DNA of 38,102 nucleotides from Thermomonas sp. (lineage in GTDB: Bacteria; Pseudomonadota; Gammaproteobacteria; Xanthomonadales; Xanthomonadaceae): assembly GCF_020850895.1 (NCBI RefSeq), contig NZ_JADZDS010000110.1, forward strand, positions 1-38,102, in the 5' to 3' direction. The position numbers were made by a program, and so were the translations under genes. This document shows positions 2,736 through 33,188 of this stretch, one piece after another (within the stretch, counting starts at the first letter, position 1; every line of letters starts with the position of its first letter). Under the pieces are notes generated by a model. That model was not told where the DNA came from and ran no database searches. It worked only from the letters and a program-made list of their open reading frames with translations.

Positions 2736-4004
2736 TGCGACATCAAGCAGCCGCAATGCCACCGCCGCGACATGGAACGAGCCGAACACCAGCAGCCGAT
2801 CTCCAGGCGCGGCTTCCGCCAAGGCCGCAGCCAATGCCGACGCGACCTCCGGGAATCGCCGCCCGGCCGCGGCTGGCGTGGCGCGCAGGCGATCTGCCAG
2901 CGCATCCACCTCCATGCCGCGCACGCCGGCGTCGCGCAGGCCGGCCAGATACCACGCATCCACGCCGGATGCCGCCAGCGCATCGACCACGCCCGCGGCA
3001 TCCTTGTCTGACAACGCCCCGAACACCGCTAGCGTGCGTTTGCACGGTTGCGCACGCAGCCATTCGGCCAAGGCCTGTGCCGCCTGCGGGTTGTGGGCGA
3101 CGTCGACCCACACCTCGACGCCATCGCGCTCAAAACGCTGCAAGCGTCCAGCCACCTGCGCCTGTGCCACGCCGCGTTCGAGGGCGCCGATTTCCAGCCG
3201 CAGCCGCAACGCCCGCAGGGCAGCGATGGCACAGGCTGCGTTGCGCAGTTGCACCGGCGCCGCCTGCCCGCCCATCGGCAAGGGCAAGTCGACGGCATAA
3301 CCGACCTCGCGCCAACGCCAGTGCGCGGCATCGACCGGCTCCGCGAAGAAATCGCTGCCAAACCGCCACGCCGGCGCGCCGATCGCGTAGGCATGCCGCA
3401 GCACGCTGGCGGGCGGATCGATATCACCCAGCACCAGCGGCTTGAACGCCCGCGCGATGCCTGCCTTTTCATGGCCAATCGACTCGACGTCGTCGCCCAG
3501 CCAATCCTGATGATCGAGGCCGACGGTAGTGATGATCGCAGCATCGGCATCGACCAGATTGACCGCATCCAACCGACCACCCAGACCGACTTCCAGCACG
3601 ACCAGATCCAGGTTCGCGCGCTCGAACAGCCACAGCGCGCACAGGCTGCCGTATTCGAAATAGGTCAGCAGGGTTTCGCCGCGCGCCGCCTCGACCGCCT
3701 CGAAGCCCGCCACCAGCGCTGCATCTTCGGCATCGTTGCCGTCAATCCGCACGCGCTCGTTGTAGCGCAGCAAATGCGGCGAGGTGTAAGCCCCCACGCG
3801 CAGGCCCTGCGCACGCGCAATGGCCTCGACGAAGGCCACCGTCGAACCCTTGCCATTGGTCCCGCCGACCGTGATCACGCGCTTGGCCGGACGCTTCAGG
3901 CCCATCCGCTGCGCGACGTCGCTCACGCGATCCAGGCCCATCTCGATGGATTTCGGATGCTGGCGTTCGATGAACTCAAGCCAGTCAATGAGTGATTTCG
4001 CCAT
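2730..4004 (-). CDS. folC: Bifunctional folylpolyglutamate/dihydrofolate synthase FolC
   Basis: Cytosolic Mur-ligase-family enzyme that adds glutamate to dihydropteroate (making dihydrofolate) and to tetrahydrofolate. The chosen start gives 424 residues, the usual length, opening MAKSLIDWLEFIERQHPKSI. The ATP-binding loop GTNGKGS is at about 48-54. Longer in-frame frames reach 4196 but run through a repeat element and have no family resemblance. There is no Shine-Dalgarno sequence before the ATG, and a TACAAT -10 box lies six bases away, so the mRNA may be leaderless. The stop is 53 bases from dedD. accD, often the next gene upstream in this group, is not present; a MITE-like repeat is there instead. 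Confidence 0.95.
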   Translation of the reverse strand: MAKSLIDWLEFIERQHPKSIEMGLDRVSDVAQRMGLKRPAKRVITVGGTNGKGSTVAFVEAIARAQGLRVGAYTSPHLLRYNERVRIDGNDAEDAALVAGFEAVEAARGETLLTYFEYGSLCALWLFERANLDLVVLEVGLGGRLDAVNLVDADAAIITTVGLDHQDWLGDDVESIGHEKAGIARAFKPLVLGDIDPPASVLRHAYAIGAPAWRFGSDFFAEPVDAAHWRWREVGYAVDLPLPMGGQAAPVQLRNAACAIAALRALRLRLEIGALERGVAQAQVAGRLQRFERDGVEVWVDVAHNPQAAQALAEWLRAQPCKRTLAVFGALSDKDAAGVVDALAASGVDAWYLAGLRDAGVRGMEVDALADRLRATPAAAGRRFPEVASALAAALAEAAPGDRLLVFGSFHVAAVALRLLDVAG

Positions 4005-4019: not shown

Positions 4020-4299
4020 CGCGTCGGCTTGCCACCCCGGCCGGTAGCGTTCGAGCGCGCCATGGATGGCGCACGTCCGCGCATCGGAGCCGGAAGCAAA
4101 GCCTGAGGCAACGCTGATTTGGTCGGCGTTGCCTGCCGACCATGGATGGTCGGCCGCGGATCGATCATCGACGTGATTGATCCGCGTGAGTTGCATCCGG
4201 GCATGCGCCGGACGCAGCGTGTGCTGACACGTCCAGGAGGGACGTGTTCAGCATTGCCCTAAGCAGCGAACGCGTGGGCCGGGGCGGCAAGCCAACGCG
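4020..4299. mobile_element. MITE-like structured repeat, copy 1 (full length)
   Basis: This 280-bp non-coding element fills almost the whole folC/phosphatase gap. Its ends are 23-bp inverted repeats matching at 21 positions (4020-4042 and 4277-4299, opening CGCGT.GGCTTGCC). Nested inside is a core, 4107-4259, with its own imperfect ends (GGCAACGCTGAT and TTCAGCATTGCC). The core folds into consecutive hairpins: 4106-4134, 4135-4154, 4155-4186 (12 bp with one wobble), 4192-4216 and 4223-4252. Cores of the same family recur at 11,084 and, truncated and inverted, at 30,911. It encodes nothing plausible. The family name is unknown to me. Confidence 0.7.
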
Positions 4300-4308
4300 T
4301 TAGGTGCA

Positions 4309-4959
4309 TCACAGCGCCCGGTGCTTGGCTTCCCCGAACAGCCCGGTGTGGTGGCTGCAGTCATTCAGGCGCACCACCTCCAGCGCATCGACGGACGCAC
4401 CTTCGAGCAGGTTGAGCGTCGCCGGCGCCTGCCGGAACGTCCACAGCCGTGCCAGCGGGATCCCCAGCACCTTGCACAGCAAGACGCGATTGACTGCGTC
4501 ATGGGCGACGATCAACACGGTGTCGTGGTCGCCGAGGCCAGCGCAGGCACGCTCGAGCGCTGGCCACGCGCGGCCCAACACCTGCGCCAGCGATTCGCCA
4601 CCCGGCCCCGGCATCTGCACGGTGTCGGGCGCGTCACGCCAGGCCTGCAAACGCCCTGGATCACGCTGCTGGATTTCACTGGCGAGCAGGCCTTCCCAAT
4701 CGCCGTGCCCGATTTCGAGGAATCCCGGATCAAAGCCAAGCTGCTGCGCGCGCGCCACGCCCAGCCCCGCGCGCGCGGTGGCGGCGGCGCGCGACAGCGG
4801 CGAAGCGACGGCACGGTCGATGCGAACATCGGCCAAGCGCTCGCCGAGGCTGCGTGCCTGCTGCTGGCCCACCTCGGACAAGGGAATATCCACCTGGCCT
4901 TGGTAGCGGCCTTCGGCATTCCAGGGCGTTTCCCCGTGACGGGCGAGCAGGATCTTCAT
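4309..4959 (-). CDS. Histidine phosphatase family protein (phosphoglycerate-mutase-like)
   Basis: A 216-residue member of the branch-2-like histidine phosphatase superfamily. The RHGET motif at about residues 7-11 supplies the phospho-accepting histidine; a later VAHDAVNR supplies the second catalytic histidine region, and EIGHGDWEG corresponds to the acidic EI.FG.WEG block. Members include GpmB, CobC (alpha-ribazole phosphatase) and broad phosphatases. Substrate cannot be told from sequence, and no cobalamin genes are near. Start taken at MKILLARHGET; an upstream Met would add 11 residues with no motif. It stands alone, diverging from the DUF3224 gene, with the repeat element ten bases beyond its stop. 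Confidence 0.85.
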   Translation of the reverse strand: MKILLARHGETPWNAEGRYQGQVDIPLSEVGQQQARSLGERLADVRIDRAVASPLSRAAATARAGLGVARAQQLGFDPGFLEIGHGDWEGLLASEIQQRDPGRLQAWRDAPDTVQMPGPGGESLAQVLGRAWPALERACAGLGDHDTVLIVAHDAVNRVLLCKVLGIPLARLWTFRQAPATLNLLEGASVDALEVVRLNDCSHHTGLFGEAKHRAL

Positions 4960-5060
4960 GACACGACCGGATGCGATTTGTGCGGCGCACAAGACTAGCA
5001 GAAGCCTCCGCGACGCGCGGAAGCCTGTACCCTGAACGGATCATCATCAGGACGTAGGCC

Positions 5061-11083: not shown

Positions 11084-11199
11084 GGCAACGCTGATGCAGT
11101 CGGCGTTGCCTGCCGACCATGGGTGGTCGGCCGCGGATCGATCATTGAAGTGATTGATCCGCGTGAGCTGCGTCCGGGAGGGACTTGTTCAGCATTGCA
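11084..11199. repeat. Structured repeat, copy 2 (core with internal deletion)
   Basis: It shares with copy 1 the opening GGCAACGCTGAT, the GTCGGCGTTGCC partner arm, the GCCGACC.TGG.TGGTCGGC hairpin, the CGCGGATCGATCAT...GATTGATCCGCG hairpin and the closing TTCAGCATTGC. It lacks about 35 bases between the CCGGG of the fourth hairpin and GAGGGAC, which removes the last two stems. The outer 23-bp ends of copy 1 were not found. It lies between the convergent tdh and membrane-protein genes. Confidence 0.75.
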
Positions 11200-11227: not shown

Positions 11228-12658
11228 TCAAACGCCGGGCACGGTCGCACCGCCGTCTTGGGTACGTTCGATGTGATCAAGCTGGTCGTCGCTGTAACCG
11301 GCACCGGAAGCGAAGATCAGAAACTCGCGCGCCGCCCGGCGCGCCCTCGCGTCTGCACTGGCGTCACGCAAGGTGGCTTCCGCCGCAGGCGTGAACAATC
11401 GCTGCACATCGTCGTGTCCGGCATCGTGCAGATTGCGCAGGCGCACGAACAGGGCAACGCGTGCGGGCGCGTCAAGCTTGCCAACCGCTTCCCGCGCCTG
11501 CGACTGCAGTTCGATGAAGGCGGCTTCCGGCGTCGCCGGCTGGGGTTGCGGCAAACGCAAGCGCAACTTGCCGAAGCTGTCTGCGTAGAACCCGGTTTCG
11601 CGCGTCCATTGCAGGCGCTCGCCATTCACCAGCAAGGCGTCCGCCGGCGCACTGGCCGTGAGACGGCTGACGCGGTTGATGTCGTCGAGCATGGCTTGCG
11701 CGATATCGGCCGCATCACTGTTCACATGGCGGAGCATGCGCGGCAGGACATCGCTCCACCACGGCAGGGCCAGCAACGGCAACAGGATCAGCGCCCACAG
11801 CAGGACACCGGATTGCCCGGTGAGCAGACGTATCCCTGCACGCCATGCGAACACGCCGATCGCACCTAGGATCAGGGTAACGATGAGGCTGATGGTGCGA
11901 TTCATCCCGCCAGTGCGGCGCGCCTCGACGATCCCGCTGGGCATGGGCAACGTTGGGCGGCGCGGATCGTAGCGCAGCGGGATGCCGGTATCGGTGCGGC
12001 TCCAGCTGGCAATGGCAAACGTGAGCGGCCGATCGTACTGTTCACGCAACGCAGCAAGCGCCGTGGTGGGTGCCGGCTTGCCCAGCATGAAGGTGTCGTA
12101 GGGCGGATGGGTGGACAGCCACTCCAGCGCCCGCTTCGACATCCGCATCTGCGGGATCTGGATACCTGATCCGTCGCGCAGGAAGGCGAACGGCACGCCG
12201 GGAGCCAACGTGTCCCAATTGTCGATACGGAAGTCATCGCTGAAGCTGAAGCGGTTGCCACAAAAGGCCCGCTGCCGTCCGCGACCACGTTCCGCGTAGG
12301 CAACCAGCACGCAAGCTTGGATCGTGGCGTAGGGCTGCCACCGTCGGCTGTCCTTGGGCAGCTTGGCTGGGTCGAAGTCGAGTGCCAGCCAGCCGTCAAC
12401 GATGCGCCCGTGTGCCGTTGCAGTGAACGGGGCGTACCGGTGCGCATCCACCATCTGCTGCGGCCAGCACATCCACGCCACGGCGAGGAAGGTGCCACCG
12501 ACCAGCAAGATGAAACCGGAGAGCAGCTTCATCAGAGGGGACGCTGCGAGCCCGACCAGGCGGTCAAGCCCCCATTCGCGCAGATCTGTCGCAAGCGTGT
12601 CATCCACGGGGGTCCGCGATGCCTCTGCCTGATCTTTCGGCGGATGCGGGGCCGGCAT
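11228..12658 (-). CDS. Integral membrane protein of unknown function
   Basis: I do not recognise a named family. The 476-residue product has one N-terminal membrane segment ([20 protein letters not shown] region, about residues 43-65). A large loop of about 185 residues follows, probably periplasmic, with several Trp/Tyr and two Cys. Two further segments ([17 protein letters not shown] and [19 protein letters not shown]) precede a C-terminal soluble part of about 155 residues rich in Arg, Ala and Asp. A strong ribosome site (GGAGGTG) fixes the start; the longer frame adds an unrelated Arg-rich leader. It sits on the opposite strand between tdh and kbl, so it is probably not part of threonine catabolism. 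Confidence 0.75.
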
Positions 12659-12793
12659 GGTTTCACCTCCGTGACCGCGAAGTGTAGGCAGGGCCCGCCT
12701 CGACTGGCAACGAAGACCGCCCATGAGGGTGCGCCTGACCAATGCGGAGAATCGGTTGCGCTAGACTCAGTGCCCCGCTCAAGGAAGTCACCC

Positions 12794-30854: not shown

Positions 30855-30910
30855 TCCGAACTGGCGCAGGCGTGGTAATGCGCCAATGCGCTAAGACGCC
30901 AATGCGCCAA

Positions 30911-31033
30911 GGCAATGTTGTACCAGCCCCTCCTAGACGTGTCAGCACACGCTGCGTCCGGTGCAGGCCCGGGCTCGGCTCACACGCATCAATCACTTGC
31001 ATCTTTGGTGCCTGCCAACCATCCACGGCTGGC
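30911..31033 (-). repeat. Structured repeat, copy 3 (inverted, 5'-truncated)
   Basis: Read on the minus strand this copy has the GCCAGCCGTGGATGGTTGGC hairpin, GTGATTGATGCGTGTGAG, and 26 bases identical to copy 1 beginning CCGGACGCAGCGTGTGC, ending at TTGCC. The leading GGCAACGCTGAT hairpin is missing. In the hairpin arms, changes relative to copy 1 mostly keep pairing (for example GCCGACC/GGTCGGC becomes GCCAGCC/GGTTGGC). It lies between the convergent amidase and aroG genes. Confidence 0.65.
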
Positions 31034-31034
31034 G

Positions 31035-31059
31035 AAAACCTCCGAGTTGGCCGGAGGTT
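31035..31059 (-). terminator. Intrinsic terminator of aroG
   Basis: On the minus strand an 8-bp stem (AACCTCCG / CGGAGGTT, loop of seven) ends in TTTT. It lies about 60 bases past the aroG stop and abuts repeat copy 3. Confidence 0.7.
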
Positions 31060-31121
31060 CCCTGGCGCATCATGAATCCACGCGCCGAGCAGGAATTTCG
31101 CTCGGCGGATGCCACGTCGGC

Positions 31122-32563: not shown

Positions 32564-33082
32564 TCAACCCAGCAATTTGCGGGAATTACGACCTTTGAAT
32601 CCGGCATACAGGGCGCCCAATCCCAGCCCGACGAACCACAGGAAGGTCCACATCGGCATCGACAGGCCGAGGAAGGCCCAGTCGATGTTGGCGCAGTCAC
32701 CGGTGGCTTGCAGCACCTTGCGCGCCGCGCCCAGCCAGGAATACTGCTCGACGATGTAGTTGAGCCCAGGCCCGCAGGTCGGCATCCCCGGCGGATACAT
32801 CTGCACCCAACTGTGCCGCCCGGCGTACGCCATCCCGGCAACGGCAGGGAGGAAGGCCAGCACACCCCAGGCACGACGTCCGGCCGCAGCCTTCGGCGCA
32901 TGCAGGCCACCGAACAGGAACATCAGGCCAAGCGCGGCGAAACACAGGCGCTGGAAGATGCAGAACGGGCACGGTTCGATGCCGAGCTGGAACTGCACGT
33001 ACAGGGCGTAGCCCAGCAAGCCGGCACAGGCGAGAAAGCCGGTCAGGAACTGCGCGCGAAACGACCAACGAAATGGATTCAT
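32564..33082 (-). CDS. dsbB: Disulfide bond formation protein DsbB
   Basis: Inner-membrane quinone reductase that reoxidises periplasmic DsbA. The 172-residue, four-helix protein has both essential cysteine pairs: CPFC at 38-41 in the first periplasmic loop and Cys103/Cys130 in the second (MPTCGPGL and ATGDCANID), nearly the E. coli numbering (41, 44, 104, 130). The arginine after the CXXC helix start (FQR) that contacts quinone is present. Its ribosome site is weak. It lies between the rplQ terminator and aroG; co-transcription with aroG is possible. dsbA is not in the window. Confidence 0.95.
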   Translation of the reverse strand: MNPFRWSFRAQFLTGFLACAGLLGYALYVQFQLGIEPCPFCIFQRLCFAALGLMFLFGGLHAPKAAAGRRAWGVLAFLPAVAGMAYAGRHSWVQMYPPGMPTCGPGLNYIVEQYSWLGAARKVLQATGDCANIDWAFLGLSMPMWTFLWFVGLGLGALYAGFKGRNSRKLLG

Positions 33083-33133
33083 GCCGTCATCTTCAGTGGT
33101 TCCCTTCGATTATCCGGCATTCCGCGCAAAACG

Positions 33134-33159
33134 AAAAACCCCGGCATGACCGGGGTTTT
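33134..33159 (-). terminator. Rho-independent terminator after rplQ
   Basis: A 10-bp perfect stem (AAAACCCCGG / CCGGGGTTTT, five-base loop) ends in TTTTT on the minus strand, 30 bases after the rplQ stop. It is symmetrical enough to work in both directions. It closes the ribosomal alpha operon before dsbB. Confidence 0.92.
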
Positions 33160-33188
33160 CCTGATTCCTGCGCTGGCGACCGGATGGA

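Follow-up and report, generated by a model that had tools for sequence, protein, structure and literature searches.

The window analysed here is a whole contig of 38,102 nucleotides (C110 of G000, a 2.53-Mb, 146-contig assembly of Thermomonas sp.), and it carries three copies of a multi-hairpin repeat, which have folC-like, His_Phos, ADH, amidase and DAHP synthase genes as neighbours. Copy 1 (4107–4258, plus strand; 152 bp) is a full-length copy with five hairpins and is placed between two co-directional genes, a His_Phos gene (4309–4992, minus strand) and a Mur-ligase (folC-like) frame on the minus strand whose start was set by eye at 4004. Copy 2 lies at 11084–11199 (plus strand) and copy 3 at 30911–31061 (minus strand), the ends of both being read by eye. 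The relatedness of the three, first noticed in a sequence-only reading of this DNA, was confirmed by BLAST within the genome and by matches to a model, R1, built from 26 sequences of 12 genomes (8 of the sequences from this genome). All three copies are intergenic, as that reading had stated, and copies 2 and 3 sit between convergent genes, one of which, at 11228–12742, is less certain because its frame has no Pfam match.

As plus-strand RNA, the inner 152 nt of copy 1 are predicted to fold into the five successive hairpins that had been proposed, at −95.9 kcal/mol (z −9.2), and none of 200 shuffled sequences was equally stable. Hairpin 1 (4107–4133), delimited by alignments and fold, includes the left terminal repeat GGCAACGCTGAT. 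Hairpin 2 (4135–4154), marked out by its loop GGA and by column conservation, presents an AUGGAU loop (4142–4147) on a C-G closing pair and thereby a CsrA-type CANGGANG. Hairpins 3 (4155–4186) and 4 (4190–4217) follow, and hairpin 5 (4221–4253), also with a C-G closing pair, exposes an AGGAG loop (4235–4239) within a CsrB-like CAGGANG; all five lie on the plus strand. The TTGCC of the right terminal repeat comes directly after hairpin 5. R1 matches copy 1 at 4103–4262 with 167.2 bits, and the assignment of this copy rests on that match, on the own-genome family and on the fold. Copy 2, flanked by CCAA and CCAG, has lost part of hairpins 4 and 5, and the deletion first estimated at about 35 bases comprises 34 (query positions 183–216). 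Copy 3 had been regarded as truncated; it is divergent and of full length, since R1 matches it end to end (30907–31065, minus strand; 93.6 bits). In its own orientation it is flanked by CCAG and TTGG (ends by eye), and its hairpin 1 is divergent, yet mostly paired. R1 gives eight further matches in the window, all at or below 20.8 bits, four of them on the opposite strand of copies 1 and 2; at 32977–33164 (15.1 bits) no such hairpins were seen by eye.

The sequence-only reading took copy 1 for a 280-bp MITE (4020–4299) enclosed by nested ends, and the 23-bp outer inverted repeat on which this model relied does exist (21 of 23 positions, 91%). The model is nevertheless scarcely tenable: no own-genome locus besides copy 1 matches over the full 280 bp, the other 43 BLAST rows falling within query positions ~79–252, and the outer part is found alone in the sister species, with other arms. 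Comparison instead indicates one element inside another. The mobile unit is 4107–4258 plus its duplicated target, present as CTGA on the left (4103–4106) and CTAA on the right (4259–4262), both recognized by comparison with uninterrupted outer repeats, which read GCCTRAGC at this point, and by the 4-mer test described below.

The 23-bp ends themselves belong, judging from the sister-species copies, to a second, older, genus-wide repeat that received the element as an insertion. Its left part occupies 4020–4106 (plus strand; locus-specific arm 4020–4042, conserved core from 4050) and its right part 4263–4299 (plus strand; locus-specific arm 4277–4299), with further loci at L194–L203, L211, L212 and L255–L284. 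Stretches up to window position 4107 match many sister-species places without the inner element. The conserved core of the outer repeat (~65 bp, TTCGAGC...GGCGAA) is matched in 22 of 25 genus genomes at E 0.001, some matches being partial, and it is the GCCTRAGC of this core that forms the insertion point, with CTGA to the left and CTAA to the right. The arms beside the core differ between loci (by eye), the 23-bp ends being such arms, and they pair with each other: at the 31 places in 40 loci that are near full length and have distinct flanks, the mean pairing score is 18.5, versus 2.3 when partners are shuffled (highest shuffled mean 5.4). GGA loops recur in the outer core, in a CCATGGATGG hairpin and in a loop reading GGAGCC. 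The pattern GSCCATGGATGGSC, an ANGGAN hairpin, occurs at five places in the own genome (reversed-pattern control 0), four of them within outer-repeat matches.

Movement of the inner element is supported by its flanks. Across 24 copies, the 4-mers to the left and right agree at 71 of 96 positions, compared with a mean of 47.6 when re-paired, and none of 20,000 shuffles reached 71; left and right 4-mers are identical in 4 of the 24 (p 0.01). These 4-mers were mostly scripted, L001 and L004 being read by eye and L016 left out for a shifted end. They define a 4-bp, YTAR-like target duplication. When the joined flanks of the 24 copies were compared with the sister species, clean empty sites appeared in G006 for L002 and L026; L014 has an empty site with a fuzzy edge in three relatives, the site of L005 is partial, and for L034, L013, L010 and L007 the comparison was unreadable. 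In the folC gap of copy 1, the BLAST matches are separated by 21 bp in G017, 34 bp in G020 and 38 bp in G019, versus 321 bp in the window; the gap in G006 holds 144 bp of other sequence. Empty orthologous gaps thus exist, and the MITE-like origin suggested earlier is borne out by target duplication, empty sites and IS5-type ends.

The ends resemble those of IS5-family elements such as Rhodanobacter NZ_CP088981, P. aeruginosa XM8 NZ_OR652289 and ISPre1, which share the form YTAR followed by GGAANNTCTGAWNAA and a 4-bp target duplication. The Rhodanobacter and P. aeruginosa plasmid elements have like ends within identical flanks (CTAA/CTAA and TTAG/TTAG). Among four plasmid IS5 elements with like ends, three are clear and ISPre1 is weak (12/18; flanks TTAA/CTAG). 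A Variovorax IS5 element with flanks CTAA/CTAG is a weaker case, its coding span being assumed in a record that lacks annotation there, and no such ends were found in the P. amygdali element. PF01609 matches the own genome only once, in a fragment of an IS5-type transposase that lies at the edge of a contig; its readable end is TTAG directly followed by GGAAGGTCTGAACAAGTGACT, and its other end is off the contig. The right end of the window family, GGCAAYGCTGAACAAGTCC, matches only partly. Unlike the IS5-family elements, the window element has no transposase, its five-hairpin interior is absent from the IS ends that were read, and this interior is more conserved than its ends. The window repeat is therefore best described, from its ends and flanks, as a non-autonomous IS5-type element (MITE) of 152 bp at 4107–4258 plus the duplicated target.

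An element of the REP/BIME type, moved by a RAYT (REP-associated) transposase, would likewise be palindromic, intergenic and present in many copies, and passages of PMC3733652 describe REP elements as short intergenic palindromes of 20–40 bp tagged with GTAG/CGTC. The resemblance ends with the short, palindromic, intergenic character (PMC3733652). The present element has five hairpins over ~152 bp and IS5-like ends, and lacks the tag: no GTAG or CGTC was seen by eye at a hairpin foot in the alignments. Together with the duplicated 4-bp target, these differences make a REP/BIME origin very improbable.

The element is not confined to three copies. BLAST of the 280-bp stretch against the own genome gave 44 rows, which reduce to 41 distinct copies after two split copies are merged and one antisense self-match is removed; covariance models add four places (C144:32476, C97:33808, C83:27128 and C121:305), so that this genome holds at least 45. 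The majority sequence runs YTAR-GGCAACGCTGATTTAGTCGGCGTTGCC (hairpin 1), T, GCCGACCATGGATGGTCGGC (hairpin 2), CGCGGATCGATCACCGAAGTGATTGATCCGCG (hairpin 3), TGAG and CTGCGTCCGGGCATGCACCGGACGCAG (hairpin 4), continues with hairpin 5 around ACACGTCCAGGAGGGACTTGT, and closes with the right end TTCAGCATTGCC-YTAR. In 9 of the 40 own-genome loci read, a short derivative lacks hairpins 2 and 3 with one common junction (L026, L027, L028, L032, L033, L034, L035, L037 and L039). It evidently moved too, because L026, L034 and L035 have the same 4-mer on both sides, and since it spread to nine loci, hairpin 2 is not needed for movement.

Several other variants were recorded. Three own-genome loci (L023, L025 and L036) end at an identical point, GTGAG after hairpin 3, without the right end. 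G060, which belongs to a different family within the order, has hairpins 2–5 as a head-to-tail array of three units, ~127 bp apart (L052 1247–1618). A 24-base insert in the hairpin 4 loop of L045 (1477–1500) resembles another small inverted repeat (CCCTGAGCTTGACGAAGGG). In L331, L323, L099, L100 and L101, the same inner hairpins and GGA loops lie between termini of a quite different type, AGCAGGCTGTTGAA...TTCAACANCCTG, as if the terminal repeats had been exchanged; GGA is kept in both loops of all five.

BLAST with the own-genome consensus found the element in 13 of 99 relatives. R1 extended it to 49 of 247 genomes and 19 of 46 genera of the window's family (E 1e-4), and to 54 of 323 genomes and 43 of 245 genera of the class (E 1e-6); in many of these, every scored candidate matches. 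With a second model, R2 (66 sequences), 34 of 397 genomes across the phylum carry the element, and 27 of these belong to classes other than that of the window. Neither plasmids, queried with two class-level elements, nor viral contigs, queried with one exact pattern, gave a match. Of 161 matches, the 102 best were used (at least 85.7 bits; 99 distinct), the remaining 59 scoring at most 49.5 bits and including many antisense self-matches.

Across these genomes the stems are maintained by paired substitution. In a MAFFT alignment of the 26 sequences (A1), 150 cells are changed on both sides, versus 51 after shuffling and 14–35 after sliding. Alignment A3 represents each of 66 genomes by a single selected copy, as a rule the highest-scoring one. 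Of these genomes, 34 are from the own family or order and one more order member is among the other 32; G060, with its tandem array, was excluded. Since A3 was fitted to R1 and so leans towards structure, its values are to be read with that bias: 94.8% of cells pair (69.2% shuffled, 33–44% slid), 824 cells are changed on both sides (228 shuffled, 119–174 slid), and 54 of the 55 stem pairs show both-side changes. The single exception is the closing C-G pair of hairpin 2, present in 65 of 66 sequences. The stems of hairpins 3 and 4 are wholly rewritten in distant families. Taken together, the sequences show a phylum-wide IS5-type MITE whose five predicted hairpins evolve by paired changes. A kissing-loop role for hairpin 4, considered for its palindromic RCATGY loops, was dropped, many copies having non-palindromic loops.

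The fixed points are found in the loops. Among the 99 distinct copies, GGA occurs in 92 hairpin 2 loops and 95 hairpin 5 loops, and in A3 in 63 of 66 (as ANGGAN in 60) and 65 of 66, respectively; the use of GGA-loop seeds in the models may bias the hits towards such loops, and by our estimate the six or seven loop columns add only a small part of the 85–185 bits scored. TCC occurs in 0 of 66 for both loops, so the strand that bears GGA never changes. Conservation peaks at the hairpin 2 apex, C-ANGGAN-G, with commonest-base frequencies in A3 of 1.0 (C), 0.985 (A), 0.42 (N), 0.985 (G), 0.985 (G), 0.985 (A), 0.73 (N) and 0.985 (G); the hairpin 5 GGA reaches 1.0, 0.985 and 1.0, compared with a stem-column mean of 0.72. 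Ten columns of A3 have at least 98% identity; hairpin 2 supplies six of these, its C-A-GGA-G, and hairpin 5 another three, its GGA. Among 17 loci belonging to other classes, the hairpin 2 loop has GGA in 15 and the hairpin 5 loop in all 17, the latter being an ANGGAN hexaloop in 9 of the 17.

Both GGA loops fit the published CsrA/RsmA consensus. Passages of PMC7652899 give the SELEX consensus as RUACARGGAUGU, with GGA in a hairpin loop in 51 of 55 ligands (hexaloops in 44), and the CsrB repeats as CAGGA(U/A/C)G; according to parts of PMC4383904, CsrA-type hairpin motifs generally occur in pairs. Most SELEX hairpins have at most 4 contiguous pairs in the account of PMC7652899, and the stems of the window element are longer. 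The conserved loops are accordingly proposed as predicted CsrA/RsmA sites, a specific and testable assignment made on motif grounds. Like CsrB and RsmX/Y/Z, sRNAs that act as CsrA/RsmA decoys, the element carries CANGGANG / CAGGAUG in hairpin loops, here in two GGA-consensus loops, those of hairpins 2 and 5. It differs from these RNAs in that each unit has no more than two sites, its copies are mobile and dispersed, and its stems are longer; an intrinsic-terminator T-run after hairpin 5 or an own promoter was not seen by eye. The own genome encodes csrA, as do 52 of the 54 element-bearing genomes of the class versus 234 of the 269 others (p 0.059), so that co-occurrence with the element is only suggestive; element-bearing G460 has no csrA match, and element-bearing G475 is not among the matches listed.

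Substitution patterns bear on the level at which selection acts. Between genomes, G.T exceeds A.C on the plus strand, 115 versus 50 in A3, 37 versus 14 in A4 and 71 versus 46 in A1. This agrees with the plus-strand RNA prediction and is suggestive, because the excess is weak per pair column: 50 versus 33 (p 0.08), 24 versus 12 (p 0.07) and 33 versus 29 (p 0.70), respectively. Within the own genome, the single-side changes of Watson-Crick consensus pairs in 21 copies comprise 26 G.T, 29 A.C and 27 others. A compensatory and strand-asymmetric signal was rejected here, G.T being about equal to A.C, despite nine double changes to another Watson-Crick pair. Slower within-genome decay of the GGA columns was likewise rejected as not significant (0.048 versus 0.088, p 0.19). 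Gene context, obtained with a simple gene caller, was available on both sides for 97 of the 102 copies: 30 are sense, 33 antisense, 20 convergent and 14 divergent, the other adjacent gene pairs in these loci being 66 co-directional, 13 convergent and 14 divergent; an overlap of more than 60 bp with a called gene is seen in 16 of the 97 and not in the other 81. Orientation and location are unbiased among the 97 copies and were rejected as signs of locus-level function. Because G.T and A.C are about equal in the own genome and neither orientation nor gap type is biased, copies look near-neutral once inserted, and constraint therefore seems to fall on source elements or on the copy pool and not on each locus. 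The earlier proposal of selection on structure rather than protein consequently holds between lineages, where stems change on both sides, and is not borne out at single loci, where neither the own-genome arm changes nor the orientation supports it.

The same data can be read as a plain IS5-type MITE without an RNA role, in which template-switch correction between arms keeps the stems palindromic and the structure serves transposition or nothing. The own-genome decay without G.T/A.C asymmetry (26 versus 29) and the unbiased orientation speak for it, and one hairpin 5 pair, C.T in the consensus of the own genome, has returned to Watson-Crick in nine cells, as arm-to-arm correction would have it. 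Such correction does not explain that the loops are the most conserved part while the stems change, nor does it account for the constant strand of GGA (TCC in 0 of 66 in both loops) or for the lineage-level G.T excess, and we consider this reading unlikely. Even less probable is a transcript insulator or stabiliser, whose hairpins in UTRs would protect mRNA ends or buffer read-through and whose GGA loops would bind a partner other than CsrA. The very stable fold and the 81 of 97 copies free of a called-gene overlap above 60 bp suit it, but no orientation or gap type is preferred, and a generic stabiliser has no need of a conserved ANGGAN loop.

The best explanation, to which we assign a probability of about 0.6, is a MITE whose plus-strand RNA carries two predicted CsrA sites. 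According to this model, IS5-family transposases acting in trans would recognize the element ends and cut YTAR-like targets, giving rise to movement, and the plus-strand RNA would form the five hairpins, with hairpin 2 (C-ANGGAN-G) and hairpin 5 (C-AGGAN-G or C-AUGGAN-G) as a putative pair of CsrA/RsmA sites. The RNA of a transcribed copy might then bind CsrA, and collectively the copies may serve as a CsrB-like decoy in dispersed form or change the transcripts that contain them. Selection keeping stems and loops would act on the source elements of each lineage or on the copy pool, where it is placed because single inserted copies look near-neutral.

Part of the element resembles a known RNA family. 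An Rfam search of the window gave nothing at cut-off, and the RF01740 (gyrA RNA) model matches hairpins 4–5, the 3' half of the element, with 45.4 bits in L285 (1492–1579, minus strand; cut-off 45). Below the cut-off are window copy 1 (4184–4270, plus strand; 39.0 bits) and nine own-genome copies (29.1–41.5 bits), and three other loci score 29.8–30.7 bits; no other of 276 class genomes matched, nor did any of 14 controls. Compared with RF01740, the element has three additional hairpins, occurs in many copies and bears IS5-type ends, and the consensus second loop of RF01740 is AAGAU, not AGGAU. In parts of PMC2864571, RF01740 is listed as a gyrA RNA for Pseudomonas. A member of that family would be expected upstream of gyrA in Pseudomonas; no gyrA is among the neighbour genes of the window copies. 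RF01740 may be related to or derived from the element, because its model matches hairpins 4–5 (45.4 and 39.0 bits). No description of the element was found in literature judged by titles and abstract starts, within a scope that has most subscription journals and bioRxiv outside it; of the papers hit by a text query with the terminal strings, those listed look unrelated by title, and a term search of the MITE review PMC10969869 returned no mention of CsrA or Xanthomonas in the text covered.

MITEs are usually regarded as the products of transposon deletion, with an interior that serves no function in its own right. In the window element conservation is highest in the interior, whose fixed points match the binding motif of a global regulator. 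A wider reading, for which we see about even odds, is that of a phylum-wide transposon family whose sole cargo is a conserved CsrA/RsmA decoy hairpin pair, persisting through rewritten stems and exchanged terminal repeats; selfish DNA would so feed CsrA-binding RNA into host transcriptomes, and RF01740 would perhaps be a captured piece, so that the element might explain the origin of Rfam's gyrA RNA. Should CsrA bind, the Csr/Rsm system would carry a hidden load that varies between lineages, made up of dozens of copies per genome, and new CsrA-controlled genes could readily arise from these copies.
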